NCBI GenBank assembly: GCA_902728285.1
Contig: CACVBU010001294.1
Span: 372,001-436,000 of the forward strand
Length of the DNA: 64,000 nucleotides
Direction: 5' to 3'
Origin: Clytia hemisphaerica
Taxonomy: Eukaryota > Cnidaria > Hydrozoa > Leptothecata > Clytiidae
Part shown: piece after piece, positions 2,621 through 35,509 of the stretch
Numbering within the stretch: the stretch's first letter is position 1
Layout: every line of letters starts with the position of its first letter
Notes under the pieces: generated by a model
Database searches by the model: none
Told to the model about the DNA's origin: nothing
Seen by the model: only the letters and a program-made list of their open reading frames with translations
Translations under genes and position numbers: made by a program

Positions 2621-3163
2621 TTTCTATACGAAAATGAACATGCTCTTCGACAGGAAGCTTTTTGCGCTGTGAACACAACCAAAGTTAAGACATGATGGTA
2701 TTAATTCTAATAATACCATGTCTTTTGCTTTGGTTGTACTTTCAGTCGAAGTACGTTCGTATCACAGTCACTTTATTCAATACTTTCTTATGGGAGAAAT
2801 CAGTGTCAAAATCAATGTCATAATGTCAAAACTTTGATTTTATAAACAACAAATTGAAGTATGAAGACATTGTCGGTAGCTTTGTGAACCTTGGAACTTG
2901 TTTTGTGAGCATAATCAAAAGGTGTGTTATTTTCAGAATTTGAAAACGCCTCCTTGATTATGGCTCATTAGCCAAGTAGATTAATTTTGCTGAGACAATC
3001 CGCTAAACGTAGTATCAACATACTTATTGAAACTCTTGTCCTGTGAGCATGACTGAAGTTGGGTGTATTTTCAAAAAGCTTTATATCTTCCTTAGTTGCA
3101 CTCATATTAAATACAGTAGTTTTGGTCGAGAAATCGACATTGGAAGCTTTCAAAGCTTTGGTA

Positions 3164-3245
3164 GCTTGTCTTGTGAGGATAACAGAAACGCGATTCATTT
3201 TCAGAATTTGAAAAGAATCTCGTTTACTTTTGCTCATCAGGCAAG
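3164..3245 (+). ncRNA. Candidate hairpin RNA, type Ia representative
   Basis: The 5' arm starts GCTTGTCTTGTGAG and the 3' arm ends CTCATCAGGCAAGC. The upper stem pairs ACGCGATT-like with AATCTCGTTT-like sequence, and the loop contains TTTTCAGAATTTGAAA. The stem is about 31 positions with a few mismatches and plus-strand U-G and G-U wobbles. Size and shape are like a microRNA precursor. Expression cannot be seen from sequence; it may be only an inverted repeat. Confidence 0.45.
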
Positions 3246-3300
3246 CAGATTGATTTTGCTTTACGAAAATGAAAATACTTTTCGACACGAAGCTCTTTGT

Positions 3301-3380
3301 GCTGTGAACACAACCAAAGATTGGCCATAATGTTATTTTCTAATAATCTCATGTCATTTGCTTTAGTTGTGCTTGCAGCA
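3301..3380 (+). ncRNA. Candidate hairpin RNA, type Ib representative
   Basis: The 5' arm GCTGTGAACACAACCAAAG pairs with the 3' arm CTTTAGTTGTGCTTGCAGC. Differences are C-to-T or A-to-G changes that mostly keep pairing on the plus strand. Near-copies occur around 3547, 4958, 7884, 40059, 42062, 42671 and 44525, so the stem recurs across both gene copies. Confidence 0.45.
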
Positions 3381-4240
3381 GCGTACTTTTAACCATAGTA
3401 CGTTGGTAGGAATGTAGCTTGTCTTGTGAGCATAGTCGAAGGGCTCTCCCAGAATTTGAAAAGCATCTCGTCAGCTATAGCTCATCAGGTAAGCAGATTG
3501 ATTTTGCTATACAAAAAGGAACATGTTGTCGACACAAGGCTTGTACAGTGACCACAACCAAAGCTAAGACATGATGTTATTTTCTAATAATCTGAATGTC
3601 ATTGGTTTTGGTTGTGCTTACAGCAAAAAGTACGTTGGTAAGAATGGGTTATCACAGTCACTTTATTCAATACTTGCTTATGGGAGAAAGCTATGTCATT
3701 ATAATAAAATACAATTCCGAAGAACTTTGGCTCTGATTCATAATAAGACGCACTCAAATTCACCAATACGGAGTTTTAACTCTTAATCGCAGATTTACAC
3801 TTCTTATAGGAGGGAAGGAAGGAAACTTTGTGTTACAAAATGCGAGAAGATATCCATAAAAGCTACATTTCATATCATTAGTATGTTTCCGATTGTGAAG
3901 TGGTTGTCCTTTTGAGTGCATTCCTATTAGTGAAGTTGATCATAGCGCCCAATTTTTACTTTACGTATCGTAAAGAAGTTTGGCTAGCTATAATCAAAAG
4001 TTCACGATGTGAAAGGGTCGTGATTTGATCAGATTCTGTGCAAACGACCACAAACGATCATAACAAACAATTTTCCATTTCATGTGAAGCATCAAGTTCA
4101 CTGGCATGGAACGAATTGAACATTCTTATTCCAAGTAATGTAAGTGTCAGCAAGTGTGACGTGACTAAAAGGTACAGGGCATTTATATCTGACTGTAGAG
4201 GTGTGCATCCGTGACACATAAATATTTTTCATTAATTTAT

Positions 4241-4270
4241 GTCGTCACACTAAAAAAATGACGTCAAATA
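4241..4270 (+). repeat. GACGTC punctuation hairpin A3
   Basis: Arms GTCGTCA and TGACGTC (one mismatch) around a short A-rich loop, followed by AAATA. Copy B partner: 41339-41368. Confidence 0.65.
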
Positions 4271-5065
4271 AGACTGCAAAGTAATCTTGTACGAACTTTT
4301 CAAGCAACTGCTAATTATACACTTGATTCGCTAAAAGTGAAAAAAAACACGGAAAAGTTTGATGAAAAAAAACCTTAAACCTTTTGTTGTGAGCACAATC
4401 GAAGGGTACGTTATTTTCAGAATTTGAAAACGTCTTCTCGATTAGTGCTAAAAGTTGTAGAATTGTCATGATTATTGGAGCTCTTGTCCTGTAATACAAC
4501 CAAAGCCAGAATATGGTGGTAGTCGATAGAGTGTAGTCGACATTGTTAGCTTCATAAACTTGGTAGCCCTGGTAATTTTAACAATGACTAAAAACTTTGA
4601 CATCCTTGGGTAACTTGTTTTGTGAGCGTAATCGAAAGATGCGTTATTTTCAGAATTTGAAAACGCCTCCTTGATTATGGCTCATTGGCCAAGTAGATTA
4701 ATTTTGCTAAGACAATCTGCTAAACGACGGAGAATTGATGCACTGTGAGTAAAATTCGGCGAAAAAGATGTCAAATTTGTGATTGTGGTATTGTTCAAAG
4801 CGATTGTTTTCATAGCCTTGGTAGCTTGTCTTGTGAGCATAGTAGAAGCGAGATTAATTTTCAGAATTTGAAAAGAATCTCGTTGACTTTTGCTCATCAG
4901 GCAAGCAGATTAATTTTTCTTTAAGAAAATGATCATGCTGGCGACACGAAGCTTTTTGTGCTGTGAACACAACCAAAGCCAGGAGATGATGGTATTTTCA
5001 AATAATCACATTCTTTTTCTTTGGTTCTACTTTCAGCCGTCATTTTCAGAATTTGAAAAACGCTA

Positions 5066-5374
5066 CAATCTGTGCCATAATATGTTTGCACTTTTGGCTA
5101 ATTTACCATTTTTGGAAAATTGAAGTTCGAGCGAGAATGTCAATTTCAGGCCCTCAACTTGATTGCATCGATTATTTCGATCTGGGAGGGATTTATTGGT
5201 TTCTAGGCTATATTTCAAGCCCTACTGGACCATTCTTAAGTCTTAAGTCTAGCGTTAAAACTCAGAGTTAAAACTCTACCCTTCGAACCTACTTTAGAGC
5301 ACTTCCAAATCGATTGTGGTTTCAAAACACCCCGGTGAATTTCCCTTTTGTGCCAAGTATTTTGTCCCTGATTG
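5066..5374. mobile_element. Probable TA-target inverted-repeat insertion, copy A only
   Basis: The 309-bp segment lies between TA dinucleotides (5064-5065 and 5375-5376), with inverted ends CAATC and GATTG. Copy B reads straight through the site (CGCTAGTG, near 42167). The inverted ends are only about 5-7 bp, so a deletion in copy B is an alternative. Confidence 0.45.
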
Positions 5375-6265
5375 TAGTGTGATTATAGCTCATCAGATCG
5401 GTTTGGCTACGGTATACGCAAATGAACGAGACAAAAGTCTGGGCAGAGCATGATCTATTTTCTAATTATCGCATGTCATTTGCTTTGGTTGTATTTACAG
5501 CAGCCAAACTTTATTGTTAAAAGTGCGTTATCACAGCCACTTTATTCAATAATTGGTTATGGAAGAAACCGATGTCATTATAAAATGAAACGACAGAAAA
5601 CTTTGACATTCTCAGTTAGCTTGTTTTGTGAGCGTAATCGAAAGGTGCACTATTTTCAGAATTTGAAAACGCCTCCTTGATTATGGCTCATTGGCCAAGT
5701 AGATTAGTTCTGCTAAGACAATCTGCTAAACGTAGTATCAACATACTTATTGAAACTCTTGTTCTGTAAGCACACTTCGACGGGTGAAATATCATATTTT
5801 TAAGTGTATTATTTTTACTTCGATTTGTACTGATAGTCATTGCGTTCATTCGGGTAAAGAAATAGTCGTTGGAGAATTTTGCCTTTCGACATGCAGTTCA
5901 GCGATTGTCTTTTGAGGACAAGCAAAGTCAGGATATTGCTGCATTTTCAAATAATCTTATTCGTTGGTTATACTCATAATTTTAAAAGTGTTATTGTGTG
6001 TATCTTTTGTGTATCTATAGAGTATGATGGTAACAGACAAATGCAATTGATGAGAAACGTTTGGTTCCGGTAAAGCACATTCGTGATAATATTAATTAAC
6101 GATTTCTACGGGAACACTCTCTGTTGTGCCTGTAGTGGTGAATTTCAAACAATTTTCCTCTGGCTTGAATGTGACAAAAACATTACGTCATGAATATAAT
6201 TGGTACAAAGTTCTAAGCTAGCAGGTGATATTTTGCTCCAGATGTTTTAGAGCTACAACTCCAGT

Positions 6266-6405
6266 GTAGCCAAGAGGGGCGCAAAAATTGTGTAGGAGAG
6301 CAGATTTTTATGCCATCATAATTATCTTTTAATACCATGAATAGGATAATTACAGTGTCATAGAAATCTGCTCTCCTACACAAATTTTGCGCCCCTCTTA
6401 GCTAC
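6266..6405. mobile_element. Short palindromic MITE, about 140 bp
   Basis: Terminal inverted repeats of about 45 bp begin GTAGCCAAGAGGGGCGC on the left and read GTAGCTAAGAGGGGCGC from the right on the minus strand, with three or four differences further in. The central spacer is about 50 bp of AT-rich sequence. Copy B does not carry this locus in alignable form, so the empty site and target duplication could not be read. Confidence 0.7.
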
Positions 6406-7913
6406 GCTACTTCTCCAACTTTATTAGCGAACTTGGCAGCGACAAATTTTTATACGAAAAAAGCGTTTGTTAAAGCTAAGTTCATCGGTACGGAGTTATT
6501 AGCTGTCAGGCAACAATAAGCTCCGGAATGTATAAGTTAAAACTCAGTGTATTAATGAGCTTGACTATGTCAACCAGTTTTCGTACAAAAGACATATGAA
6601 TCTAGTGAAGTTTTCAATATTCATTGGTACGGAGTTTTCAGCTACCAATCGTTTATACCAGGTACTTTTATGAGGTTGTACAGCCTTTTGATAAACTTGA
6701 TCACGATAGCAAATTTCTATTTCAGCTTAAAGAAAACTGGCTATAAATGTTCATCGATATGGAGTTTTTATGAAGTCGATTCCTTGTTTGATTGAGACCA
6801 GCGCTAGAAATACACTCGTGTTCGTGAAATCGATCATAACAAAAAATGTTTCACTCATTTCATAGCGATATTGAGTACGGTATGGAGCTATTTTTCAAGT
6901 AGACTTTTACCCCCGTGTTTAAAAATGCATTATGATTACGTTTTGATCAGCCATACTCGTGAACTTGATTAAAGCGAGAGTTTTCTACTTCATAGAATAA
7001 TTTCCCTCTGGTATCAAGTTCATCGTTACGGAGTATTCAACTACCAGTCAATATGGGGTTCCATATTATTCATGACAGCGGTTTTAGTGAACTTTTCATT
7101 TTGGGTAGGTCACAATTCTCATTCCAAAATTTAAGTTAAGCCATCCCCTCCTATAGAATAAAAAACGAATCAACAAAAAGTCGCTTTAAACGTAAGGTTA
7201 CAATATCTTGATGAAACTGTAAACCCGGTACAAGAGAGCAGTTATGTTTTATAAAGCTTCGCTGATTGTTTTACTCATAAGTAAAATGGAAACTCTCTAG
7301 TATTGGAAAAGTATAGTTGGAACAATAGTTAGTATGGTTTGCTAGCAGGATTTTTATCTTCTTAGCTTACTCATAAGATAAGTGCGTTCTCTCGAATAGT
7401 ATAGTTGAAAAGTTGGTTTTACATCTATAATTTTTAAGTACAAATACTATATTTCTTGCGGGACTTGTCAATGGCGAGTATGATGAAAAATTAAAAATGA
7501 TATTCCATATTTCTTAGTAAATTTTCGTTTTACTCAGGAGAATATTGAATTCTCTCAAAGATACCACGAGCTGTATCGAAAATGGAAATGAAGAACATTT
7601 CTACGAATTCAAATTGTCTTCCTTTATATATGCTACTGTTTCGTGATGTATTTTGTATCTAAACAGCAGTATTGTGTAAATTGTGGTGCTTCGCCATAGT
7701 AGTTTTGTTAGGGCAATCGATTGATATTAGTAGCTTTAACAGCTTTGGCAGCTTGTCTTGTGAGCATAGTCGAAGAGCGGTTCATTTTAATAATTGGAGA
7801 AGCTCATTGACTATAGCTCATCGGCCAAGTAGATTTATTTTGCTATACGAAAATGAACATACTCTTCGACACGAAACTCTTTGTGCTGTGAACACAACCA
7901 AAGATAGAACATG

Positions 7914-8459
7914 CTCCAGGGGAATAAGGCGGGTTCGTGGGGGTCAAAATTCTTGCAACGTTACAAATCATTTTCATGAACTCATTTTAGGCTCAAACGA
8001 AGCGTATAACTAACTAGAATAAGATTCAGTCAATTTTGATGACGTCATAAAAATTGAAATCCCAATAACTTTTGATAGAATTATCAAAATAATTTCAAAT
8101 TTTTACCAAAGATGCATTTTAATGCAAATTTTCAAAAAAAATCAAAAAAATTTAAAAATCTTGATGAAGTCAGCATTTTTTAAGGATTTCAGTTTTTTGG
8201 CCAAAAAGTGATGACGTCATCAAATTTCAATAATTTTTTTTTCTAATTCTAAAAACATTAATAATATGCATCTTTTGTCAAAATTTGAAATTATTTTGAT
8301 AATTCTATCAAAAGTTATTGGGATTTCAATTTTTATGACGTCATCAAAATTGACTGAATCTTATTCTAGTTAGTTATACGCTTCGTTTGAGCCTAAAATG
8401 AGTTCATGAAAATGATTTGTAACGTTGCAAGAATTTTGACCCGCCTTAATCCCCTTGAG
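7914..8459. mobile_element. Foldback element with about 200-bp inverted repeats, copy A only
   Basis: Both ends begin, read inward, with an AGGGGAATAAGGCGGG or AGGGGATTAAGGCGGG block. The arms stay paired through AAAATTCTTGCAACG and TGACGTCAT to an AT-rich centre, so the whole 546 bp can fold as one hairpin. Copy B has the empty site (AACACGGGTATTT near 44548). At most 2 bp (TG) are duplicated. The internal TGACGTCAT words resemble the intron's punctuation hairpins but sit inside these arms. Confidence 0.85.
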
Positions 8460-8952
8460 TGGGTATTTTTAAATAGCCAGCTGTTTTTACTCCGAGCATA
8501 ACGCTCATTGCAGTAAGGAAAACATCGTCTCTTATATATCGTTTATAATCCGTATAATACAGTGATATTAGGGTGTTATATGATAATATGATAATTGTAG
8601 CAATTTAATATCAGGTTGTATAAAATATAATTTATCCCTTGCTGTTTTTCTACTTTGTCCACAACATGTAGCATGCTAGACTACTGTATATAATGGAAAC
8701 TTTTGGGAACTGTACTCTCAACTTCTGAGCACAAAAACGTGATGTTTTCAACAAAGAAACAAATTTTCAAAGGTGCTCAAAGGACAGTCTTAGTGAGATG
8801 ATTTAGCCACTTTAGACATAACTCTATTTCCAAATCAAATAGAATTTTATCAAAGTGGTCAAAAAACCAAATTGCTTCAAAATCAAAATCGTAATCGAAG
8901 AGCAAATGAAAAAAATCCTGACAAAAAAAATTGCTTAAGTCTTCATAAAGCT

Positions 8953-8982
8953 GGCGTCATTGAAAAAAGTGACGTCAAATAA
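8953..8982 (+). repeat. GACGTC punctuation hairpin A4
   Basis: Arms GGCGTCA and TGACGTC (one G-U wobble on the plus strand), then AAATAAA. About 40 bp downstream is the leader-like word AGTTAAGCATACAAG, also seen after hairpin A6 (near 15330) and near 57178. Copy B partner: 45061-45089. Confidence 0.7.
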
Positions 8983-10164
8983 ATCTTAATGATAAGTCGA
9001 TTTCAGTTAAGCATACAAGCCGACAAAAGAAAATTGAAGGATCGCGCTATTGGTAATTTGGTGTGACCATCATCAAAAGGGTTGATGATTTCAAATGTGT
9101 TGATTCTGCTCCTACGGTACGAAGACTCTCTCAAATAGATATACTTAGTGGCCTGATATTTTCAACAGTGATTTGTCTTGCGACCACAATAAAAAAATGA
9201 CAATGATTTTTAATTCATAGAAATTTCTTTGGGTATAGGTGTACCTAAAGTATCTGATTAATTCCAATGTTGAAAGTTTCAAAGAATTTTATATCTTGTT
9301 TATATGAATGTGCATTATGACCACATGTTAGAACTGATGACTGAAAACTTGAATGAGTGGATATCGTTCAATTCGATTTCGATGTTTATCGAAGCAAGAC
9401 GTGAAAACGTAGAGCCTGCCGCTGATTAGCTAGGACGGAATTCACAGGAACAGCTAGGATCCAAAAGGTTTGACCTAATATTTTAACTTGATGACTTTAC
9501 GTGATTTTTCATTTTTTCAATATTTTTGTAGGTATTCATAAATGTGAGGACGAACTTCTATAATATTTACATATAAAAGTATTTCAAAAAGACAAAGTCT
9601 TAAACTTTGATCTGTAAGCGCCAAGACCTTACAGTTAATAAATTCTGCTTTGATAATCGACTGTAATTTCACAGTGAAGAACTGATTAGGTCCTCATCGG
9701 TATATCATGAAATCTTACGCGAAAGGTGAAACACTTCAGAAGAGATATTACGTCTTTTACTTCCTGCGGTTTTGTAAAGGTACGCGATGCAGAATAAGAT
9801 TTAAAGCTTGTCTTGTGAGTATGTTGAAAATGAAGAATGATTGACAATTACTCTCTCCATTTTTGGTTTCATACTCACAAGAGAAGCAGCTTAGACTTCG
9901 AAATATTACTACATGAATCAACCATCATTCATCTTACGAGCGTATGTAATAAAGAAAACGATATTTTTCGATTCATATGCATTGATGAGCTTGGTATTGA
10001 CGTTCTAAGGGTTAAATATTTCTATCTGAAAAACTATGATCATGAGTGCCATTCATCGGAAAATTTCTCGTATTGCCCATTAAAATTGTTTAAACCAATA
10101 TAAAAACATCTCATACTTGATTTTACTTCGGTTATTATCATGTGAGCCAATCAAAAGTGGTGAT

Positions 10165-11200
10165 GATTTTTACAAATTACTATTAATTTGCTCATAAGGC
10201 AAGCTGATTCTCTCATAATGAATATTTTGAGCACCTTCTGTGTCTAAGATCTCACTCTAAGCAGTAATATTGCGAAAACATTTGGTGCTTTCTCGTGTGA
10301 GCACAATCAAAAAGGCTGGTGATTTCGAATTAATCAACGCTTTTAGATGAGCTCATAAGGGAATTCGATTATTATTTCACAATATCTGGATATTTAAGCA
10401 TCTTTGTCTGCGATCTCTGAGAAACAATATTGCGAAAACTTTTGGTGCTTTCTCTTCTAAGCACAATCTAAAAGGATGGTGATTTTCAAATTCACCGTCG
10501 GTTTGAGAGAAGCTCATAAGGGAATTCGATTATTATTTCACAACATCTGGATATTTAAGCATCTTTGTCTGCGATCTCTGAGAAACAATATTGCAAAAAC
10601 TTTTGGTGCTTTCTTTTGTGAGCACAATCTAAAAGGATGGTGATTTCGAATCAGCCGACGCTTTTAGAGAAACTCATAAGGGAATTCGATTATTATTTCA
10701 CAATATCTGGATATTTAAGCATCTTTGTCTGCGATCTCTGAGAAACAATATTGCGAAAACTTTTTGTACTTTCTCTTATGAGCACAATCTAAAATGATGG
10801 TGATTTCAAATTCATCAAGGTTTTTTCATCCGCCCGTAAGAAAAGTGGAAATATCTAAATATTGAAGCAACTTCTGGATATCAATCTGTAAGTAACAATA
10901 TTGCGAAAACTGTTGGTGCTTTCTCTTATGAGCACAATGAAATAGGATGGTGATTTCAAATCATCACATCTTTTCAACTTGTTCTTAAGGCGAGGAAATT
11001 CTCTAAAGATATTTGTAAATATCTAATAATTTAGATTTTCCGGTGAAACCTTCGTTGTTTTCCCTTGTGAGCGCAATCAAAAACGCTGATGATTTCAAAT
11101 TCATCGAAGCTTCTTGATGGTTCATAAGGCAATTCGAATTTCTCATATCTCTGGATATTTAAGCAACTTCTTTGTCTGCGATCTCTAAGTAACAATGAAG
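10165..11200 (+). repeat. Hairpin array II, copy A (period about 155 bp)
   Basis: About six units. Each has a stem-loop with 5' arm TTTTGTGAGCACAATCTAAA and 3' arm TTTAGATAAGCTCATAAGGG, with inner pairing GGTGA/TCACC. The conserved spacer contains GGGAATTCGATTATTATTTC and TGCGATCTCTGAGAAACAA. The stem is about 30 bp and the loop about 8 nt, among the best hairpins in the window. The last units (10840-11190) are diverged. Copy B has about ten units at 45700-47450. Confidence 0.75.
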
Positions 11201-11251
11201 CTTATTTTTTTCCCAAAATTTTTTTCATCTTATTTTGAATCTTCGACACGA

Positions 11252-11382
11252 ACACAGATTCCGATTGGTGACTAAAAATGACAATCCTTCACAACTAGGA
11301 AATCAAGGTAGGTACAAAAGGATTCCGATTGGTGACTTAAAATGACAATCCTTCCCAACTAGGAAATCAAGGTAGGTACAAA
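11252..11382 (+). repeat. Two-copy 65-bp direct repeat
   Basis: The unit starting GATTCCGATTGGTGACT and ending GGTAGGTACAAAA occurs twice in copy A (about 11252 and 11317) and once in copy B (about 47515). This is a small unequal-exchange or slippage difference between the copies. Confidence 0.8.
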
Positions 11383-11807
11383 AACGATCATACTTTAGGT
11401 TACTTTCTTTCTATCTATTTATGTTTTCTTTTTCGACATGCTTTTGAATGAATTGTTATTGTTTATTTCAAAATCATATTCTTATATAATGGACCATGTC
11501 GTTAAATAATGAGCAATGGGGAAATGCTTAGTCTGTGCTTATGAACTTTGGGAGCATGTCGTTCAAAGAATGTGCAACCGGTAATTTCTTTCTTAGTTTG
11601 TGTCTATTATTTATAAGCGAATTTCAATGGAAGCTTTGTTTACATGAGGGATGCCGTGAAAGTGAAGAAACTTTGTTGACTTGGATTGAGTTTTGGACAT
11701 GTATTTGCACGAATAGATATCGTTTTTCATGTCATGGGAGATTGTTCGGTTTATCGGCATTTTCATTATCTGGTCTTCTTATTTTGTCATACCGTTTTCA
11801 TGAAATT

Positions 11808-11841
11808 GACGTCATTTAATGGACTGATTGACGTCAAATAA
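11808..11841 (+). repeat. GACGTC punctuation hairpin A5
   Basis: Perfect arms GACGTCA and TGACGTC with a 14-nt loop, then AAATAAA. Copy B partner: 47892-47924. Confidence 0.75.
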
Positions 11842-12389
11842 AAAAAATTGCATACTAGAAAGTTAAATAAGTGCAGAACGTTGTGTCGATCACATGACAT
11901 GAAAACAGAGAAAAGTAATATTGAAATCATTTGTCTTGTCTTGTTTTGTGAGTATGAACTGAAAAGTAGGGTGATTTCAAATCAGCCAGTTTGTTTTCAT
12001 TTATACACAAAAGACGAGTCGGTCGGAATACCTGAATGATATTCTGTGTAGACAACAACATTCTTGTATACTGTGGGAATGATCATAAAGTTAGATAATT
12101 TTTCAATTATCTGCCCTAGTTCAATTAGCTGGTAAGATTATTTGGTTCTCAAAAGTATTTGAACGTTTCATCCATAGCTTGTTAGACAGGTTTAAGTAAA
12201 GGAAAATATTCGAATTCGATGGTGAGATGATTTGAAAGTCAAAAATATTTTAAAAAACTGCATTTCATTCATTATATTTTAATATTTTGCCGTGCGAGAA
12301 TAATAAAAAGGACAATGCTTAAAAATTAATATGAACTTTAAATTCATCAGTTACTTGAAATATATGTTAAAAATATAAAATTTCTTTTA

Positions 12390-13560
12390 TAGCTTCTCTT
12401 GTGAGTGTGATTAAAAAGTGTGATATTTTCAAACTATAGGCATGATCTTGATTGCACTCACAAGTTACAAAGCGGATTAGGAAAAATTTCAGATAGCAAA
12501 ATGGAAAGCCAAGCAAAATAAACTTAGAATTTCTTTTATAGCTTCTCTTGTGAGTGTGTTCAAAACGTGCGATACTTTAGAATTATTGGCATGATTTTAA
12601 TAGCACTCACAAATTATAAGCAGATTAGGAAAAGAACTTCAGATGGCAAAAAGGAAAGCCTAGCAGAAGAAACTTGAAATTTCTTTTGCAGCTTCTCTTG
12701 TGAGTGTGATTAAAACGTGCGATACTTTAGAATTATTGGCATAATTTTAATTGCACTCACAAGTTACAAAGCGGATTAGGAAAAATTCAGATGGCAAAAA
12801 GGAAAGCCAAGCAAAATAAACTTAGAATTTCTTTTATAGCTTCTCTTGTGAGTGTGTTCAAAACGTGCGATAGTTTAGAATTATTGGCATGATTTTAATA
12901 GCACTCACAAGTTACAAAGCGCATTAGGAAAAATTTCAGATAGCAAAATGGAAAGCCAAGCAAAATAAACTTAAAATTTCTTTTATAGCTTCTCTTGTGA
13001 GTGTGTTCAAAACGTGCGATACTTTAGAATTATTGGCATGACTTTTAATAGCACTCACAAGTTATAAGCGCATTAGGAAAAATTTCAGATAGCAAAATGG
13101 AAAGCCAAGCAAAATGAACTTAAAATTTCTTTTATAGCTTCTCTTGTGAGTGTGTTCAAAACGTGCGATACTTTAGAATTATGGGCATGATTTTAATAGC
13201 ACTCACAAGTTATAAGCGGATTAGGAAAAATTTCAGATATCAAAATGGAAAGCCTAGCAGAAGAAACTTGAAATTTCTTTTGTAGCTTCTCTTGTGAGTG
13301 TGTTCAAAACTTGCGATACTTTAGAATTATTGGCATGATTTTAATAGCACCCACAAGTTATAAGCAGATTAGAAAAAATTTCAGATATCAAAATGGAAAG
13401 CCTAGCAGACGAAACTTGAAATTTCTTTTGTAGCTTCTCTTGTGGGTGTGTTCAAAACGTGCGATACTTTAGAATTATTGGCATGATTTTAATAGCACTC
13501 GCAAGTTATAAGCGGATTAGGAAAAGAATTTCAGTTGGCAAAATCGAGAGTTCAAAGCAG
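12390..13560 (+). repeat. Hairpin array III, copy A (eight units, about 148 bp)
   Basis: Units start near 12393, 12541, 12691, 12838, 12988, 13138, 13286 and 13434. The stem-loop has 5' arm CTTGTGAGTGTGTTCAAAA and 3' arm TTTTAATAGCACTCACAAG around a loop with ATACTTTAGAATTATTGG. Spacers contain GATTAGGAAAAATTTCAGA and GAAAGCCTAGCAG. Units with 5' GATTAAAA carry 3' TTGCACTC, whereas units with 5' GTTCAAAA carry 3' ATAGCACTC. Copy B carries the same family at 48410-50740 (interrupted by two insertions) and again at 57430-57960. Confidence 0.8.
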
Positions 13561-13648
13561 AAGGAACTTGACATTTTAAGCAAACTTTGATATTCAACAT
13601 TCATTTCAAAATGTATAGTTGATACTTGTAAGGTCTTTGTTTATTGAC

Positions 13649-14219
13649 CAGGGGGGGGGGTCGGTACTAAAATCTCAGACATACATGAGTACTAAAAGGA
13701 TTTTCGCTAATTTTTGACATACCCCCACCTATTTTTTCGAAAATGTTATTTTAGTACACATGTACTAAAATTATTTTGAACAATTTAACATAGATACCAC
13801 CCATTTTTTGCCCTTTTACGGCTTTAAATTTACCAAAATGGGGTCATTGTTACAAACCTAGTCGAATTTAGTGCATCAATCTGCAAAATAATATAATTTT
13901 ATTACTAAACTGTGCTGAACTGTACATAAAAATATTTTCAAAAAATATTTAAAAATTTGGAAAAGTTCTGAAAGATTTCTGCAGATTTTTTTGAAAATTC
14001 CTGAAAAAAAAAATCAAATTTTTTCCAAAATTGTTAAAAAAAAACTCCATTTTGGCTGATTTTAGAACAAAATACTAAGATTTTTCAAAAATTTCTTTAA
14101 GAGACCACCCTTTTTAGTATTTTAGTACACATGGTACTAAAATTATTTTTGAGCTTTTTTGCATACCACCACGTCACTAAATGTCATGATGTCTGAGATT
14201 TTAGTACCGACCCCCCCTG
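13649..14219. mobile_element. hAT-like inverted-repeat element, copy A only
   Basis: The 571-bp element starts CAGGGG and ends CCCCTG. Terminal repeats continue TCGGTACTAAAATCTCAGAC on the left with the reverse complement on the right. It is flanked by TATTGAC at 13642-13648 and 14220-14226. Copy B lacks it (near 50815). CAGGGG ends and a 7-8 bp duplication suggest the hAT superfamily, but no transposase is encoded. Subterminal TTTTAGTAC-type motifs recur (ACACATGTACTAAAAT). The small open frame at 14159-14347 is not a gene. Confidence 0.75.
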
Positions 14220-14279
14220 TATTGACGAGTAATTTGTGTTGTTTGTTACAGGCGTTTTTGTTCGCCTTCACCGTTATTT

Positions 14280-15085
14280 TTTGTACGATTTTATTGCTTA
14301 GTCTTGTGAGCACCTTGGAAAGTAGTTCATGTTTTCAAATCACGTGATAATTTCTTGTAGAGTGCTCATAAGGGAAGCAGAAAGCATCTTCTATGGTTGT
14401 AACAATTTATTGCTTTTGTCTTGTGAACACTTTTAAAAGTAGTTCATGTTTTCAAATCACACGATCCTTTCTTGTAGAGTGCTCATAAGGGAAGCAGAAA
14501 ACATCTTCTATGGTTGTAACAACGATTTTATTGCTTAGTCTTGTGAGCACCTTGGAAAGTAGTTCATGTTTTCAAATCACACGATCATTTCTTGTAGAGT
14601 GCTCATAAGGGAAGCAGAAAACATCTTCTATGGTTGTAACAATTTATTGCTTTTGTCTTGTGAGCACTTTGGAAACTAGTTCATGTTTTCAAATCACACG
14701 ATCATTTCTTGTAGAGTGCTCATAAGGGAAGCAGAAAACATCTTCTATGGTTGTAACAATTTATTGCTTTTGTCTTGTGAGCACCTTGGAAAGTAGTTCA
14801 TGTTTTCAAATCACACAATCCTTTCTTGTAGAGTGCTCATAAGGGAAGCAGAAAGCATATTCTATGGTTGTAACAATTTATTGCTTTTGTCTTGTGAGCA
14901 CTTTGGAAAGTAGTTCATGTTTTCATATCACACGATCCTTTCTTGTAGATGCTCATAAGGGAAGCAGAAAACATCTTCTATGGTTGTAACAATTTATTGC
15001 TTTTGTCTTGTGAGCACTTTGGAAAGTAGTTCATGTTTTCAAATCACACGATCCTTTCTCATAAGGGAAGCAGAAAGCACGATTT
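14280..15085 (+). repeat. Hairpin array IV, copy A (seven units, about 118 bp)
   Basis: Each unit has 5' arm CTTGTGAGCACTTTGGAAAG, a middle TTCATGTTTTCAAATCACAC, and 3' arm CTTGTAGAGTGCTCATAAGG. The basal 11 bp pair fully with one G-U wobble. The spacer has GAAGCAGAAAGCATCTTC and GGTTGTAAC. Copy B expanded this array to about 46 units (50880-56935). Confidence 0.8.
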
Positions 15086-15253
15086 TCCGACGTTTGACTT
15101 GTTCTCTTTGCTTATCGAAAATCTACGAGAGAGTAAAATGGGTACAATAAGGAGCAATTATGATGAGAGCTGATGTGAAAATATTTAGGCTACCTCGGAG
15201 ACTAGATAAATTGGCCGAAATATTCAAGTTGGTTGAGTTTCTCTAATAAAATT

Positions 15254-15282
15254 GACATCATTAGTAAAGTGACGTCAAATAA
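15254..15282 (+). repeat. GACGTC punctuation hairpin A6
   Basis: Arms GACATCA and TGACGTC (one A-C mismatch), then AAATAA. It is followed by CAGTCAAGCATACAAACAG, similar to the leader after hairpin A4. The copy B counterpart is lost; near 56965 a different palindrome (ATGTCGTT/AACGACAT) occupies the region. Confidence 0.6.
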
Positions 15283-15509
15283 TTTTTTTTCTCGTTTTCT
15301 CCATTCCAATAACGTGCAAAATCCAGTCAAGCATACAAACAGATATAAAAGACAAATTGAACAATGCATTAATAGTCTTGCCTTGTGAGTATGATCAAAA
15401 TATACGGTGATTTCAGATCAGTTGGATGTTTAAATGTGCATACTGAAAAGGCGAGTCCACGTAACTAACTGAATTTTTTCACATACCTATATTTATATAC
15501 TATTTTAGT

Positions 15510-16190
15510 AGCTTTTACTGCCTTGAGTAGTTTGATATCTTTGTGCTGTTTCTTGTAAGCTTAACCTAAAAGGTAAAAATTCATATTGTTTGTTTGATTC
15601 TTATAGGTAGATGTAGGCTCTCTCAAATAACTGAATATTTCAGTACCTTTTTTTACTGCCTTGAGTAGTTTGATATCTTTGTGCTGTTTCTTGTAAGCTT
15701 AACCAAAAAGGTTCAAATTCATATCGTTTGTTTGATTCTTATAGGTAGAAGTAGGCTCTCTCAAATACCTGAATATTTCAGTACCTTTTACTGCCTTGAG
15801 TAGTTTGATATCTTTGAGCTGTTTCTTGTAAGCTTAACCAAAAAGGTTCAAATTCATATCGTTTGTTTGATTCTTATAGGTAGAAGTAGGCTCTCTCAAA
15901 TACCTGAATATTTCAGTACCTTTTACTGCCTTGAGTAGTTTGATATCTTTGAGCTGTTTCTTGTAAGCTTAACCAAAAAGGTTCAAATTCATATTGTTTG
16001 TTTGATTCTCATAGGTAGAAGTAGGCTCTCTCAAATACCTGAATATTTCAGTACCTTTTACTGCCTTGAGTAGTTTGATATCTTTGAGTTGTGTCTTGTA
16101 AGCTTAACCAAAAAGGTTCAAATTCATATTGTTTGTTTGATTCTTATAGGTAGAAGTAGGCTCTCTCAAATACCTGAATATTTTATTAGA
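15510..16190 (+). repeat. Array V (five units, about 131 bp), copy A only
   Basis: Units carry CTGCCTTGAGTAGTTTGATA, then TTTCTTGTAAGCTTAACC and TTCTTATAGGTAG. The arms CTTGTAAG and CTTATAGG pair only weakly, so the hairpin is poorer than in the other arrays. The array is absent from the corresponding place in copy B (about 57200-57250). Confidence 0.75.
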
Positions 16191-18020
16191 TTGTACTGTT
16201 TCGGTTAAAGTATACTACGAAAAATGTGCAAGAGTCGATAATACTACAAGTAGCTTTGATATACAGGCTATCATTTCAGCATGAATAGTTGATTTTGTTA
16301 GGTGTTGCTCGTAACAAACGATCAAGTTGCATGGGAAGAAAATTTTTCATCAAAATTGCCTCCGAATTTTAAAAAATACACAGCTTTAAGATTTCGAATC
16401 TAGTACAGTATGTACGGAGCTTCCGGGAAAACACAACAAGTTTGTGGTAAGTTTAACCTTAACATATTTTACTTGTGAGCTCATTGGTAGAAAGTTAATT
16501 TCTACGAAAAATTCCTTTTTTAGCTCGTCTTGTTAACAAAGATTTTGATTGGCTTTTTTAGTAGATTTGATATTTCGTCATGTGAGCATACAGTAATAAA
16601 AAAAACGATGATTCCAAATAACCTGAATATCAGCTAAAAATTGAAAATTATTTTGTAGCTTGTCTTGTGAGTGTGTTCAAAATGTGCGATACTTTCAAAC
16701 TCATGCCTATAGTTTGAAAGTATCGCACGTTTTGAACACACTCAAGCTACAAAAGAAATTTTAAGTTTCTTCTGCTAGGCTTTCGATTTTGCCATCTGAA
16801 TTTTTTCCTAATCCGCTTATAACTTGTGAGTGCAATCAAAATCATGCCAATAATTCTAAAGTATCGCACATTTCTGATCGCACTCACAAGTTAGAAAGCC
16901 GATCCGGAAAAGTTAGAATTTTTATAAAAGAAATCTGCCATGAGCAATTCTTAATAAGCAAGAAAATATTCTTTATCATGTTTTTACTTTGGCCCAGGTT
17001 TTTGGGCTCAAAATTCGATTTTTTGACGATTTTTCAATTCAAAATTTTATATGTAACTATGTTAGTTTCAACAAAAATTCGTTCGTAGCTTGTTCTGTGA
17101 GTGTCTTTAAGAAGATGCTATATTTTCGAACTATTGGCATGATTTTAATTGCACTCAGGGGTTTTAAAGTTGATTACGACGAAAATTCAGTTGGTTATTA
17201 TCGTAGAAACTTGTTCATAAACAAGATTTGATATTCAACTGTCATTTATAAAGAGTTGAGTTTGTTAAGTCTTGCTTCTTGACACGTCGTTTGGAAGGTA
17301 ATTCTCCATGGTTTTCTTATATTGAGAGCAATCTAAAGAAGGGGATATTTCTCATTACTAAATACAATGGGTGGTTCTCGGTATAGGTTCTTAAATTGTT
17401 TTACGAGTATTGTCCTCACCAAACATGATACTGTATCTAAGGAAAAGCTTCTGTCAGTTTGTCTTCTTGAAAACATGAATTCTTTGGCTGGAAAGTTTTC
17501 TTCAGGTACAACTTTTGTCTCGTTGAAAACAGGAAACTTAGCGAGTTTTCAATTCTCAAAGTAAAGAAACTTATAGGATCGACACTCGAGGAAAGAGTTA
17601 AGATTCGAACATCATACTTTGGTTTTGTTTTGTGAGCATTACTTATAGCAAAAGATAATACTCCATGCATGTGTTTGTCTGTAAGCAGGATCATAGATCT
17701 TTAACTTCAAGATGAAGGCTTTATTTTACATAATGCCGTGCTATTGCCTGTTTTGCGAGTGCAACTCAAAAAGAGCGGTATTTTCTTGATATGCGAAATA
17801 TTTCAGATGCACTCATAGAACAAGTAGTATTAGCTTGACGTATTTTAAAATAATGTTTTAATTCTAACATGTTAAATACATAGCCTTACTGTAGAGGTTA
17901 AATCTATAGAAGGAGGTTTCTTGTGTGTTCTTAAAATAAAATCTCTATCAAAAAAGCTTGGTACAACACCAACATTTGTTGGAAGCTTGTTTTGCGAGTT
18001 AAATTTGAAGAAAGCAATAT
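16191..18020. other. Intron 3 between arrays V and VI, with single hairpins
   Basis: Scattered stem-loops of the array III family occur here, including an inverted pair (see 16650-16895) and units near 17085 and 17750. About 1.2 kb (17335-18530) has no alignable counterpart in copy B. Open frames at 16789-17231, 17367-17694 and 17921-18166 show no domain or family. Confidence 0.45.
16650..16895. repeat. Inverted pair of array-III hairpins forming a larger palindrome
   Basis: A forward unit (CTTGTGAGTGTGTTCAAAA, then GCGATACTTTCAAAC) is followed after a few bases by its own reverse complement (GTTTGAAAGTATCGCAC, then TTTTGAACACACTCAAG). A third, reverse-oriented unit ends at about 16892 (GCACTCACAAGTT). 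This is the only clear reversal of orientation among the array-III hairpins in copy A. Confidence 0.75.
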
Positions 18021-18030
18021 TTTCGGAATA

Positions 18031-18499
18031 CCTTATCGGCCCTTTTTACGCCAGCCCTAATTTAACACCGGCCCTTTTTACGCCGGCCCTTATTACACCA
18101 CAGCCTAGTTTTGGGCTTACGCCAATTAGGGCCGTTAATAACGCCAAAATTGGTAAAAATGGCTAGTTATGCTTCAAATTAGTATATGACTAAAATTTAC
18201 ATCAAAATGTAATTTTCAGTAGTAAACTGTTGAAAATTCCATCGAAAATCAAATTTTTAAATATATTAAATATTTTATTGAAGTTTTAAATATGGAGTAA
18301 AACAATGGATAATTTTTGTCTTCGAATCATACCTAAAATCCTTTAAATTGAGAAATAATGATAAAAATTAACGCCGCTTTTAGGTCAAAATTGCAAAATC
18401 TTGGCCCTTTTTACGCCGGCCCTTTTAACACCTGCCCATATTACGCCATGAGCCCAAAAATAACGCCATTAAGGGCCGGTGTAAAAAGGGCCGATAAGG
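18031..18499. mobile_element. TA-target inverted-repeat element with GGCCCTTTTTACGCC motifs
   Basis: The 469-bp element has ends CCTTATCGGCCCTTTTTAC and GTAAAAAGGGCCGATAAGG, flanked by TA (18029-18030 and 18500-18501), as in Tc1/mariner-type elements. The interior carries about eight variants of GGCCCTTWTTACGCC or the related TTAACACC/TAACGCC near both ends. No transposase frame is present. The region is missing from copy B. Confidence 0.8.
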
Positions 18500-18689
18500 T
18501 AATTAGATTATTTTCTTCTTTTATTTGCTTGTTCGTATGTGTGTGAATTCTACCTGGTTAGTCAAGGAAAATCAACAGTATGGTAATAGACGTATTATCG
18601 GTAGGTATAAGGTTATTGCTTGTTTGTAAGAATGGTAGGAGATTTGGATTTCACTTTTTGAGGTGAGTGAAGAAATCTCTACATCATGC

Positions 18690-19975
18690 TTATTACCAAG
18701 TAGTGTTCAAACTATGTTATGGCATCATGTAGCTTCTAGTAATATTTTATGATTGCTTGTTCGCAAGCATGTTAGTGAATTCATTGGCTGTCACGTCAAG
18801 ATGGCAGCCTAAATGTCCAGAGCATGCTTATTACCAAGTAGTGTTCAAACTATGTTATGGTATCATGTAGCTTCTAGCTTTGTCAGTATCATTACATGCA
18901 TGTTAGTGAATTCATTGGCTGTCACTTCAAGACGGCAGCTAAATGTCCAGAGCATGCTTATTACCAAGTAGTGTTCAAACTATGTTATGGCATCATGTAG
19001 CTTCTAGCTTTGTCAGTATCATTACATGCATGTTAGTGAATTCATTGGCTGTCACTTCAAGACGGCAGCTAAATGTCCAGAGCATGCTTATTACCAAGTA
19101 GTGTTCAAACTATGTTATGGTATCATGTAGCTTCTAGCTTTGTCAGTACCTGCTCGTATAGCTTGTTTGTAAGCATGTTAGGAGATCTGACTGTCACTTT
19201 TAGACCGCAGCTAAATGTCCAGAACATGTTTATTACCAAGTAGTGTTCAAACTATGTTATGGTATCATATAGCTTCTAGCTTTGTCAGTATCATTACATG
19301 CATGTTAGTGAATTCATTGGCTGTCACTTTTAGATGGCAGTCTAAATGTCCAGAGCATGCTTATTACCAAGTAGTGTTCAAACTATGTTATGGCATCATG
19401 TAGCTTCTAGCTTTGTCAGTATCATTACATGCATGTTAGTGAATTCATTGGCTGTCACTTCAAGACGGCAGCTAAATGTCCAGAGCATGCTTATTACCAA
19501 GTAGTGTTCAAACTATGTTATGGTATCATGTAGCTTCTAGTAATATTTTATGATTGCTTGTTCGCAAGCATGTTAGTGAATTCATTGGCTGTCACGTCAA
19601 GATGGCAGCTAAATGTCCAGAACATGTTTATTACCAAGTAGTGTTCAAACTATGTTATGGTATCATATAGCTTCTAGCTTTGTCAGTATCTGCTCGTATA
19701 GCTTGTTTGTAAGCATGTTAGGAGATCTGACTGTCACTTTTAGACGGCAGCTAAATGTCCAGAGCATGCTTATTACCAAGTAGTGTTCAAACTATGTTAT
19801 GGCATCATGTAGCTTCTAGTAATATTTTATGATTGCTTGTTCGCAAGCATGTTAGTGAATTCATTGGCTGTCACGTCAAGATGGCAGCTAAATGTCCAGA
19901 ACATGTTTATTACCAAGTAGTGTTCAAACTATGTTATGGTATCATATAGCTTCTAGCTTTGTCAGTATCAGTTCA
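18690..19975 (+). repeat. Hairpin array VI, copy A (about ten units, about 133 bp)
   Basis: The constant word ACCAAGTAGTGTTCAAAC occurs about ten times between 18696 and 19920. Some units carry a stem-loop with 5' arm CTTGTTTGTAAGCATG and 3' arm CATGCTTATTACCAAG, with a longer imperfect pairing above it. Two unit variants alternate: one contains TAATATTTTATGATTGC, the other TCAGTATCATTACATGC. Copy B has about six units at 59070-59870. Confidence 0.8.
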
Positions 19976-20019
19976 TATTTGCTTGTGTGTGTACTGTGAT
20001 TCACTTGGCAAGTGATCGC

Positions 20020-20115
20020 GTCTTCACCCGGGTCAACCAATGCCATGTGAGGGGGATTGGGTACCATGCCCCGATAAAAGAGTGTCGGGAGATATGCGCG
20101 TGGTGTGATTAGATC
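20020..20115. repeat. GC-rich fragment closing array VI
   Basis: A 90-bp patch richer in GC than its surroundings (CACCCGGGTCAACCAATGCC through GATATGCGCGTGGTGTG). It is also present at 59868-59955 in copy B. It may be a remnant of a retroelement or SINE. I could not assign a family. Confidence 0.4.
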
Positions 20116-22600
20116 CAGTTTAACTATGGAATATTTTGTTAAATTTTAGTACCAGGTAGCTGGTTTTTGAGTACACTTGAAAAGGGCAATAAGAATTTTA
20201 GAATAATGGTGTATTTCAATTACACACATAAGACAAAGTGGGTAACTATCAAAACGTTAGAATATGTATCATGTAGCTTGTTTTGCGAGTGCAATTTATA
20301 AAGGGTGGTATTTTCAGAATAATTATCCAACTTAGTTGCACTCGTAGAACAAAAGTTTCTACAAGATTTCACAACATTTTAAAGGTACGTAATAGCTTAA
20401 GCGTACGACCTTTACCTGCTTAACAGGCGAATCGGCAGTATTGATATATGGACTATTGCTTTGAAAGTGAGCTGATAATATAACTTGTTTGTAAGCATGG
20501 TCAGGAGATTTGTCTTTCACTTTTTTGGGATGAATGATGAAATCTCGACACCATGCTTATCATCACATAGTGTTGAAAAATTCTATATTTGATATTTGAT
20601 ATTTATATTTTTTCAGTCAGTTCTAATGCCTGTTCTGCTAGTGCAATTCAATAAAGAGATATTTCAAGAACAACTTTCTACGAAAATTCTTTCTTGGCTT
20701 GTCTTGTGAGTGTGTTAAAAATATGCTATATTTTCAAACTATGGGTATGATTTTAATAGCACTCAGAAGTTACAAAGCGGACCGATAGAATGTTGAAAAC
20801 GTTTTGTAGAAGCTTGTTCATACAAGTAAGATTTGATATTCTTCTCTGCTCATTCACAGACAAGCGGGCTTTCATAAAATTTTTTTTTTTAATGGTTTTC
20901 TTGTAAATTTTTTCATAAATTTGTCGGCATTTCTTCCTTAAAATAACACGTTGACTATGAGAAGGGCCTTATTCATTAAACCTAACGACTTTATATGTAT
21001 ACGATTGACCCGTATTTGAAAGTTAGAATATCATTTATGTGAATAAATTTTACCCAGTAATCCTGTTTGAAGAGATTTATTACAGGTGACATTGAGCAGA
21101 ATTGTGCAGCAATGGCTTTTTTTAGTTAAGAGATTTGTTGTTTGCAAAATAAATAAATGACCTGGTGATGAGCAGTTAAGACTCGAAAAGCTTTGTTTGA
21201 ATAAAATCACATTTTTGTGTTATTTAGTAACATTAGCTTGGTAACATTTAAATTCCGAATCAGCACCCTCAAATTGACCAAAATCAATTCTAAACGCTTG
21301 GTCACGGACATTTTGAAAAAAAGTGAAACGTTTTGGTGGCACTGGCCATGGCCTATTTATTTTGAATCATAATTTAGTGGCTTGGAGAAAATAAAAGAAA
21401 GAAAAAAAATTTGTTGTTTGCTTCTGCTCAAATATACCAAGCACAATACACACTATTTTTACAAGAACAATCTTAAAAGAGAACATGATGTCGATTTAAG
21501 CTTTTCTTGAGTCAATATGTAAATAAGATAAATAAGCTTTTATTAAGAACATTTTAAGAGCATAATAAGCCCGGAATAAGCCTGAAAATAACAGCATAAA
21601 AACAGCCCATTCTCAGCCGTAGTAGATAAATAAATTCAATTTTAACGTCGGAAGACTTTTATTAAATTGGAAAACAATTCTTTGAAAATATTTTTACGAT
21701 TTCAATATGGTGAAGTTCAAAATGGAGTGGTAGGGTTTTGTAATGGTTGGGTTTAGATTGAGCATGATTTTCAGAGCTGAATAATCATGTTCATTGCAAA
21801 CACTTAAAACTCAAACTACACCCTTCAAAAAATCGATTGCCCTTTTCCAAGAATCGTATTGGATATTGTGTTCTCTCCTCTTCATCTCCAGAACACGCAA
21901 TCATGGACAAAAGACTTTTGCAATGTTTGCAAAATACTTCAATATCGATCAAAAACAAGTTCTGGGTGCTTTCCAAACCCATCCAAAGCTGTTCAAAGTC
22001 TTTGAAAGTCACCCACTGCAGTCTAACCACAAGGGCTAGATCAACTGGCTTACACCAGTATCAAAACGCTGATTTTTTGCTTGTGGTTCCCTTTTCAGAT
22101 ACATTGAAGAATCATTTTGCTCTATTTCTCATCATTTTTCACTGAAATTTCATTTGTCTACAACCTTTTGTCCAGAACACGGCAATATTCATCTTAACGT
22201 GATTTCAAAGAATAAAACTATTTTCTCGGTAAGAAAGTTTTAACTTCGGAATTATGTTCATATAAACATAACAAACACCACGAACTCTAAAACTGATAAC
22301 TAGAACTAAAAAACTATTCAAATGATAATATAGTGTGTCTTTCTGGACGTGATTTCCAGAGAAAACCTTTTTTTTTATAAAGAGCAATGTTTTTCTGAGT
22401 CATGTTTATTCATTCAGTCAAGGACCTTTAGAAACGATAAGTGGAATGGACAGTTCGTTCAAAAAAAATACATTCAGCTCAGAATATGTGTTTTTCTGGA
22501 CGTGATTTACAGAAAAAACCTTTTTTTTTATAAAGAGGAGATTTCTTGTGGGTCAAGTTCATTCAGATAACCAAGGACCTCAAGAAACCATAGGTGGAAT
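20116..22600. other. Intron 3 distal part, copy A
   Basis: Contains two more stem-loops near 20280-20350 (GTTTTGCGAGTGCAA with TTGCACTCGTAGAAC) and 20695-20770 (CTTGTGAGTGTG with AGCACTCAGAAG). A tandem two-copy 150-bp repeat lies at 22339-22640 (TTCTGGACGTGATTT units). Relative to copy B there are 284 extra bases between two AGAACACG words (21890-21897 and 22174-22181). The open frames at 21791-22145 lie across this indel and show no family. Confidence 0.5.
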
Positions 22601-22822: not shown

Positions 22823-22873
22823 TGATATTCTCCACTAGTTCCCACTCTTCCATTAGAAATGCACCGTAATGTC
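22823..22873 (-). CDS. DUS1L: DUS1L copy A, exon 3
   Basis: A 51-nt exon between a TTTTAAG acceptor and a GTAAGTG donor, coding HYGAFLMEEWELVENI after a split Gly codon. This matches the HYGAFLQDEWDLL helix that follows the catalytic loop in vertebrate DUS1L. Phases agree with exon 2 (ends in one base) and exon 4. It is identical in sequence to copy B exon 3. Confidence 0.95.
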
Positions 22874-23126
22874 CTTAAAATGGAAAACAAAGAATGAGAT
22901 GATAATACGTCGAAAGACCGCTTCTTATGCAACGCCTGTTTAATATTCGTGATGTGAGGCACTAGAGAGTCTTCCTATAATAATTCTAGTGCTACCCTTT
23001 TCAGGACGAGCCCTTCTGCCATGCAAGAATTGTAAGAAAACCAGTGATTGATTTATATAATGAAAAGTTTACTCAACAAAGGCAACCCTAGAAAATGGGA
23101 TCGGCTTGAAAATTACACATTTGTAC

Positions 23127-23235
23127 CTCTCGCAGCGATGACTTGAGGGCAACCGAGATTCAAATCAACTCCATCACAATGTGGTTCTGCTAATTCACAA
23201 GCATCTGCAAATTTCTCAGGATCGTTTGCACAAAA
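23127..23235 (-). CDS. DUS1L: DUS1L copy A, exon 2 (catalytic cysteine)
   Basis: A 109-nt exon (CTTTCAG acceptor, GTACAA donor). It encodes residues about 79-114, starting FCANDPEKF and ending [12 protein letters not shown]. The LNLGCPQ motif holds the Dus-family catalytic cysteine (Cys107 by this model), which donates a proton to the uracil while FMN reduces it. The upstream FCANDPE segment is also a DUS1L signature. The reading frame continues cleanly from exon 1 (Gln78) into exon 3. Confidence 0.96.
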
Positions 23236-24685: not shown

Positions 24686-24769
24686 TATATACATAACATA
24701 TACATAAAATATTTCAACTTCTTGTAAGAAGAACCAATATACTTTTGGAGATCAAGAAATTAATGATGA

Positions 24770-35364: not shown

Positions 35365-35509
35365 CACTTTTGCCACATGCGAAATAAATGTCCTCTCACA
35401 TAACTCAAATTGGTGGGATATTGATTGCAGTATGCTAAGTATTTATCCACCATCTCCCATGCGGGCGGTTGCCGCCCTGTGAATATGGCGGGATTGTATA
35501 ATGCACCCT
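35365..35509 (-). CDS. DUS1L: DUS1L copy B, exon 6
   Basis: 145 nt, acceptor TTTTTAG, donor GTATGT. Encodes [20 protein letters not shown], then [20 protein letters not shown] and HLFRMWQK. It matches [20 protein letters not shown] and SYVRAHLFKLW of vertebrate DUS1L. The exon ends the TIM barrel and starts the helical domain that grips the tRNA. Confidence 0.95.

Follow-up and report, generated by a model that had tools for sequence, protein, structure and literature searches.

Intron 10 of the mouse gene Sfmbt2 is described as holding 65 microRNA (miRNA) genes in a 55–65 kb stretch of nested tandem repeats (PMC3212979). Among hydrozoans, 38 high-quality miRNAs are reported from Hydractinia echinata, of which three have homologs among known cnidarian miRNAs (PMC11067881, PMC10368294). 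Here we analyze intron 3 of DUS1L in Clytia hemisphaerica, which occurs twice (copies A and B) in a window of 64,000 nt (contig CACVBU010001294.1, here C884, positions 372,001 to 436,000) and is densely filled with stem-loops. The original prediction, made from the letters of this window, stated that no described system with so many hairpins in one intron was known to its author; it had overlooked Sfmbt2. As our leading but tentative reading, at somewhat under an even chance, sequence evidence suggests that intron 3 hosts a locus of the miRNA or hairpin RNA (hpRNA) type, antisense to its host gene.

Hairpins of DUS1L intron 3

C884 is 2.24 Mb long in a genome of 417 Mb, and C884:172001–372000 was joined to the window for analysis. 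DUS1L is encoded on the minus strand, with stretches of exons 1 and 5 matching Pfam Dus (PF01207). The splice sites flanking intron 3 were read directly: exon 3 of copy A ends at 22823, with gtaagt next, and exon 4 of copy B starts at 36992, preceded by ttcttcag. With the far ends set by BLAST, the intron spans about 72–22822 in copy A and about 36993–63793 in copy B. These data confirm the predicted host intron, and both introns are therefore wider than first proposed.

Hairpins were counted in several ways. A covariance model (R1), trained on 20 of these hairpins and hence not giving independent counts, returned 71 matches in copy A (window 90–22818), with 48 on the plus strand, two of which cover an inverted copy and a palindrome, and 23 on the minus strand. 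Copy B (37011–63789) gave 143, with 84 on the plus and 59 on the minus strand, and the 14.2 kb separating exon 3 of A from exon 4 of B (22819–37010) had no match. As an observation, then, the predicted >50 and >80 stem-loops hold. Over 274 kb, R1 made 472 matches, both strands summed (300 of them listed). Searching by motif plus fold gave 47 (A), 79 (B) and 4 (between) on the plus strand and 29, 79 and 7 on the minus strand, the latter counts being high because the basal motif is nearly palindromic. Regular expressions plus folding over 264 kb yielded 313 hairpins in 60 clusters at 78% identity, of which many single-member clusters are probably chance. Intron by intron, these hairpins number 39, 34, 30, 34, 57, 43 and 64 (sum 301, chance ones included).

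A local-fold scan (at least 20 bp, –18 kcal/mol or lower; five dinucleotide shuffles, all of the plus strand) showed an excess confined to the introns and to one strand. Plus-strand hairpins numbered 85 versus 61–67 shuffled in A, 104 versus 77–83 in B, and 51 versus 45–53 between, so that strong hairpins exceed the mean shuffle by about 22–24 in each intron. Minus-strand numbers (62, 83 and 57, respectively) were at about the plus-strand shuffle level, with no excess. Inverted repeats of score at least 24 over 264 kb numbered 87, versus 1 in a single mononucleotide shuffle.

Tandem families had also been predicted, and units of 160, 148, 117, 135 and 130/137 nt were found, though the CTTGTGAGCATA family (uC) is interspersed; the 135-nt unit folds weakly. 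A shared basal stem, claimed for all hairpins, is common to many families but not to uD (e.g. 3301–3379, 3541–3626), the 130/137-nt family (18685–19970) or hairpin M1 (1877–1960). In a comparison of 20 hairpins, the basal stem and an apical TTT/TTTTCA stretch were the most uniform parts. Each of 23 family representatives, selected by energy, has 19–34 pairs, in keeping with the precursor size and duplex of a miRNA gene. The stems, of about 20–30 bp with mismatches, are not the long near-perfect inverted repeat of an hpRNA or endogenous small interfering RNA (endo-siRNA) locus, single palindromes at 6276–6395 and 16644–16762 excepted.

Other repeats share the intron. In copy A there are near-perfect palindromes of ~120–150 bp at 6276–6395, 16644–16762 and 1217–1366, the first of which is found again near 225 and 297 kb of C884 and partly at 336, 339 and 341 kb. 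In the fifth of seven tandem units on the contig (C884:335200–340430), a ~2.5-kb hairpin-bearing block seemingly occurs three times (uC matches at 335211, 337723 and 340236). Relative to the tandem repeats of copy A, only copy B has a 152-nt CCGG-rich repeat and GGCGCGTC short repeats (49300–49587, 50499–50570).

Pairing, strand and the M1 hairpin

Pairing has been kept over long times. Among 20 diverse hairpins, two-sided changes preserving pairs were seen in 19 cells, compared to 6.9 ± 2.9 after shuffling (0/500), and the covariation score was 0.263 versus 0.183 after shuffling and no more than 0.123 after sliding. Two-sided columns of the basal stem are 11–72 (CG/UA), 12–71 (AU/GC) and 13–70 (CG/UA/UG); basal-stem pairs 1–8 helped pick the hairpins, whereas these three columns did not. 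Arms pair better with their own partners than with permuted ones, both in 23 energy-selected hairpins (–26.3 versus –14.6 kcal/mol, 0/5000) and in 12 families selected by motif only (–7.76 versus –5.69, 11/5000). Observed variants destabilize the fold less than do random variants matched in mutational spectrum (Stouffer z –4.08 on the plus strand, 12 families; –3.55 over 11 families with the w20703 set, taken to overlap u148, dropped). For energy-picked representatives, mean z was –5.45 on the plus strand and –4.51 on the minus strand; we do not use this as sole support because selection used plus-strand fold energy. RNAalifold gave a weak result for 51 uC hairpins, with a poor consensus (–1.53 kcal/mol, two-sided change in 2 of 13 pairs) that we think is due to subtypes shifting register. 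Structure without constraint on sequence fits either selection on shape or correction of the arms by template switching.

Wobble pairs were used to compare strands, with G-T and A-C given equal weight in the scoring. In hairpins of score at least 18, G-T exceeded A-C in 57 of 75 (A) and 95 of 103 (B), versus 22 of 42 between the introns, a stretch with 172 G-T and 163 A-C. Part of the excess is composition, because the intron plus strand is rich in G and T. Yet medoids of 23 families carried 69 G-T versus 27 A-C (19 families versus 2, with 2 ties), a ratio of 2.56 versus 1.62 in shuffled hairpins (two-sided p 0.046). Cells of the basal stem in 20 hairpins include 26 G-U and 6 A-C, one column supplying 13 of the 26. 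Recent mutations, counted by copies, gave G-U-making to A-C-making changes of 453:509, versus 195:291 in spacers (p 0.012). The likelier RNA strand is thus the plus strand, opposite to DUS1L, which this moderate bias in the sequence favors but does not prove.

The best single pre-miRNA-like hairpin, M1, falls outside the coordinates of the original prediction. A genome search found it at 11 places: seven on C884, two on C476 and one each on C623 and C19. Across the nine copies read, variable sites amount to 2/34 in the 5' arm, 1/14 in the apical part, 11/35 in the 3' arm and 68/300 in the flanks, making the 5' arm less variable than the 3' arm (p 0.012) and the flanks (p 0.024). The 3' arm varies but still pairs. 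All nine fold better on the plus than on the minus strand (–26.9 to –42.8 kcal/mol), and G-T outnumbers A-C by 52 to 1 in seven related copies. This contrast between arms, reminiscent of guide and star strands, is suggestive, but we treat M1 as a lead, not proof, because conservation enters the 5' flank and M1 is the best of many hairpins. It is for M1 that the miRNA reading is best supported, as a possible, unproved assignment.

RNA locus or satellite

Under the antisense reading, a separate locus on the strand opposite DUS1L would be transcribed into a long RNA whose start may lie close to M1, just beyond exon 4. This plus-strand RNA would fold into 30–80 short imperfect hairpins, which Dicer would cut to ~22-nt small RNAs, as in a polycistronic primary miRNA or a tandem hpRNA. 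The cluster may have grown at two levels: short tandem duplications would have multiplied hairpin units inside the intron, and the entire unit containing DUS1L would itself have been duplicated in tandem. We infer plus-strand transcription, its start, processing and any role.

A nearly equal contender, also not quite reaching an even chance, is a neutral hairpin satellite: imperfect palindromes would have been amplified in tandem by unequal exchange, and their arms equalized by replication template switching, with no RNA product. Template switching is described as able to create and maintain stems (PMC8794818), and several results weigh against the antisense reading and toward a satellite. Stems diverge about as fast as spacers (0.057 versus 0.055 in u117), and arms diverge faster than flanks in u160 (0.13 and 0.22 versus 0.065) and in uC. 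Fold preservation is equally strong on the minus strand (z –3.97), with 10 of 12 families negative on either strand. Under motif-only ascertainment, the inner-stem effect shrinks and the strand difference vanishes, the plus strand being better for the inner stem in only 4 of 12 families. Of 12 multi-copy families picked by basal motif only, two have inner stems that fold better than dinucleotide shuffles (z < –2). Recent mutations, counted as distinct changes, show no preference for G-U (87:95 in stems versus 38:43 in spacers, p 1.0). Copy number is unstable, with 6.6 units of 117 nt in A and about 50 in B, and near-perfect palindromes lie within the same intron (6276–6395, 16644–16762). No match to Rfam reached the gathering score in the window, so a known Rfam family was rejected; the best sub-gathering matches in 1–22800 are mostly palindromes.

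The M1 contrast has its own caveats. M1 was selected as best among many hairpins, and its nine copies were gathered by requiring 21 nt of the 5' arm to match exactly. On C884 this retrieved the same seven copies as BLAST, but each of the two copies left unread has a single-base difference within the 22-nt 5' arm, where 8 of 11 copies are exact. With at least 3 of 34 sites variable, the 5' arm differs from the flanks at p 0.076 and from the 3' arm at p 0.034.

Other features are awkward for a satellite. Template switching alone would not be expected to limit the hairpin excess to the plus strand or to raise G-U over A-C beyond composition, and the M1 arm contrast and the near confinement to one intron also argue against it. 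The predicted likeness to pre-miRNAs or hairpin RNAs holds in part. Size, the common base, family-specific upper stems, kept pairing and M1 all agree with it, as does the plus-strand excess over shuffles, while most inner stems, in families picked by motif only, do not outperform their shuffled controls.

Genome searches scored best candidates only, and repeat counts are thus lower bounds. Three array sequences matched only the C884 array, C476, C623, C19 and one fragment on C197; the 117-array query matched C884, C623, C476 and C197. A dispersed transposon or miniature inverted-repeat transposable element was rejected, as all 58 uC matches listed and all 11 M1 matches lie on C884, C476, C623 and C19. 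Our guess is that C476, C623 and C19 are haplotigs; C19 carries M1 and uC matches but no exon 1 match. The C197 fragment (289.4–291.8 kb) comprises 2.4 kb of the 148/117 arrays and lies next to a transposase-like open reading frame (ORF), which we take to resemble pogo/CENP-B; the two together occupy L037:3404–5778 and 6109–7638.

Potential targets were sought as antisense sites of four arms, in one register each, with up to 3 mismatches and a reversed-pattern control. Outside the array contigs and C197, no site with two or fewer mismatches was found for M1-5p, M1-3p (one version), u148-5p or u117-5p, a further point against the antisense reading. M1-5p matched only the 11 M1 places and M1-3p, in that version, six M1 places (control 0 for both). 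For u148-5p there were 71 places, three of them outside the hairpin regions and C197 (C341, C885 and C884:1608956; 3 mismatches each; control 3). For u117-5p there were 96, with ten outside (3 mismatches each; control 1): C34, C250, C378, C452, C456, C890 and four on C494, ~0.9 kb apart. The latter four (C494:239197–241955) may be a tandem target or chance in a repeat. Silencing in Nematostella and Hydractinia is reported to require nearly full complementarity (PMC11811051), and if that rule is followed here, the absence of such sites is an argument against an ordinary miRNA role. Given this absence, any products would have to recognize targets missing from the assembly or spanning splice junctions, rely on weaker matches, or act in cis on the complementary intron of DUS1L pre-mRNA. 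As to machinery, two Dicer-like ORFs with paired RNase III domains are present (C643 and C517), the former also with PAZ and Dicer-platform matches below cut-off; Drosha was not identified in this enzyme check.

Action in cis could also be that of an endo-siRNA (hpRNA) locus, in which plus-strand hairpin RNA, possibly paired with DUS1L pre-mRNA, would yield siRNAs that reduce the output of the seven DUS1L copies or shut down the array. The sole sites with two or fewer mismatches to the four arms are on the complementary strand of the arrays (plus the C197 fragment for u148 and u117), and seven apparently intact DUS1L copies could call for dosage control. Differences in copy number among species are also described for tandem hpRNAs, hp-CG4068 among them (PMC10317233). 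Still, the spliced message does not contain intron RNA, and these stems are short and mismatched. The stems of hpRNAs are typically long and near-perfect. We consider this explanation unlikely. Less probable still is a structural RNA or protein-binding array, in which a long noncoding RNA or single-stranded DNA would present the hairpins as repeated sites for binding. The uniformity of the basal stem and apical TTT/TTTTCA across 20 hairpins fits such an array, as does the keeping of pairing rather than sequence, but it would not by itself explain the nearly invariant single arm of M1.

In its most ambitious form, the antisense reading would make this a lineage-specific nested hairpin-RNA gene with ~300 precursors in seven copies, its fold selected while its stems change, continually replenishing a pool of small RNAs directed at targets absent from the assembly, or feeding back on the DUS1L array. 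We regard this full scenario as doubtful.

The repeated unit and comparison with known systems

By BLAST, the order within the repeated unit is a fibrinogen-C domain (FReD) gene, DUS1L exons 6-5-4, the hairpin intron, exons 3-2, a G protein-coupled receptor (GPCR) gene and exon 1. This unit of ~30–44 kb occurs seven times in tandem on C884, with intron 3 ranging from 16.0 to 28.3 kb. A genome search with exon 1 listed ten copies: seven on C884 (205–438 kb, 30–44 kb apart), two on C476 and one on C623. Frames are open for exons 1 and 2 in 6 of 6 copies and for exons 4, 5 and 6 in 7 of 7. Because the exons are open and protein identity is 96.7–100%, DUS1L looks functional in every unit. The retention of seven copies of a tRNA-modifying enzyme gene, with exons nearly unchanged, is puzzling. 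The FReD copy at C884:213859 and the GPCR copy at C884:358543 match in separate pieces, the remaining copies read being whole. Elsewhere in the assembly, contig C900 carries COX1 with three in-frame TGA codons and, next to it, a cob-like gene, an order that would point to Hydrozoa; the GPCR and FReD genes likewise look cnidarian.

Table 1. Positions of hairpin arrays, single hairpins and genes in the window
Feature	Position	Strand	Basis
M1, best single pre-miRNA-like hairpin, copy A	1877..1960	+	arm variation, fold
Interspersed CTTGTGAGCATA-type (uC) and CTGTGAACACAACC-type (uD) hairpins, copy A	2902..7824	+	R1, motif plus fold
Hairpin CTTGTGAGTATG..CATACTCACAAG	9812..9881	+	R1, motif plus fold
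160-nt tandem hairpin array, copy A	10266..10814	+	tandem repeats
148-nt tandem hairpin array, copy A	12376..13544	+	tandem repeats
117-nt tandem hairpin array, copy A	14290..15059	+	tandem repeats
135-nt tandem array, weak hairpin	15501..16183	+	tandem repeats, motif plus fold
Single inverted 148-type hairpin, adjoining near-perfect palindrome 16644–16762	16823..16890	-	R1, fold scan
130/137-nt tandem array with TTTGTAAGCATG hairpin	18685..19970	+	tandem repeats
DUS1L exon 3, copy A	22823..22873	-	splice sites read directly
DUS1L exon 2, copy A	23125..23235	-	open frame in 6/6 copies
Intronless rhodopsin-type GPCR, between DUS1L exons 1 and 2	25576..26517	+	PF00001
DUS1L exon 1, coding part, copy A	26601..26834	-	Pfam Dus PF01207; open frame in 6/6 copies read
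FReD gene of unit	33815..34720	-	PF00147
DUS1L exon 6 (coding match), copy B	35364..35510	-	open frame in 7/7
DUS1L exon 5 (coding match), copy B	35870..36052	-	Pfam Dus; open in 7/7
DUS1L exon 4, copy B	36880..36992	-	splice sites read directly; 7/7 copies
M1, copy B	38872..38955	+	BLAST, C884:410872
Interspersed hairpins, copy B	40295..44464	+	R1
160-nt tandem hairpin array, copy B	45715..47071	+	tandem repeats, R1
148-type array, copy B	49674..50064	+	tandem repeats, R1
117-nt tandem array, about 50 units, copy B	51012..56911	+	tandem repeats, R1
148-nt array, copy B	57435..57952	+	tandem repeats, R1
137-nt array, copy B	59066..59811	+	tandem repeats

Were it expressed, the array would rank as a very large hairpin-RNA cluster for a non-bilaterian animal; we know of no larger one in such an animal, though none was searched for. 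It would also be a natural test of how small-RNA precursors are born by tandem duplication, and of whether cnidarian small RNAs always require near-perfect targets. A silent array would instead be a clear case of a satellite resembling structured RNA, and a caution for hairpin-based miRNA prediction.

Six arm strings had no match in open-licence literature (supplements not covered). Known systems can be compared by architecture and behavior. The Hydractinia set is, like M1, hydrozoan; M1 is set beside it by description only. The miR-430 / miR-427 loci of fish and frog are likewise highly multi-copy, but their miRNAs are described as embryo-expressed and acting on many maternal mRNAs (PMC10368294), whereas the DUS1L array is known from its sequence. 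Drosophila hp-CG4068 resembles the array in its tandem hairpins of one transcript (here putative) and its fast change in copy number; it differs in giving Dcr-2-dependent siRNAs that target mus308, while the DUS1L stems are of many families (PMC10317233). With Sfmbt2, as that locus is described, the likeness lies in a single intron with dozens of pre-miRNA-like hairpins, lineage specificity and two-level tandem duplication. The mouse hairpins, however, are named miRNA genes, and their repeats contain B1 elements and CA/TG repeats (PMC3212979). Those of DUS1L are sequence predictions that seemingly face against a host gene present seven times. On our comparison, Sfmbt2 intron 10 is architecturally the closest known system, and tandem hpRNAs such as hp-CG4068 are the closest in copy-number behavior.

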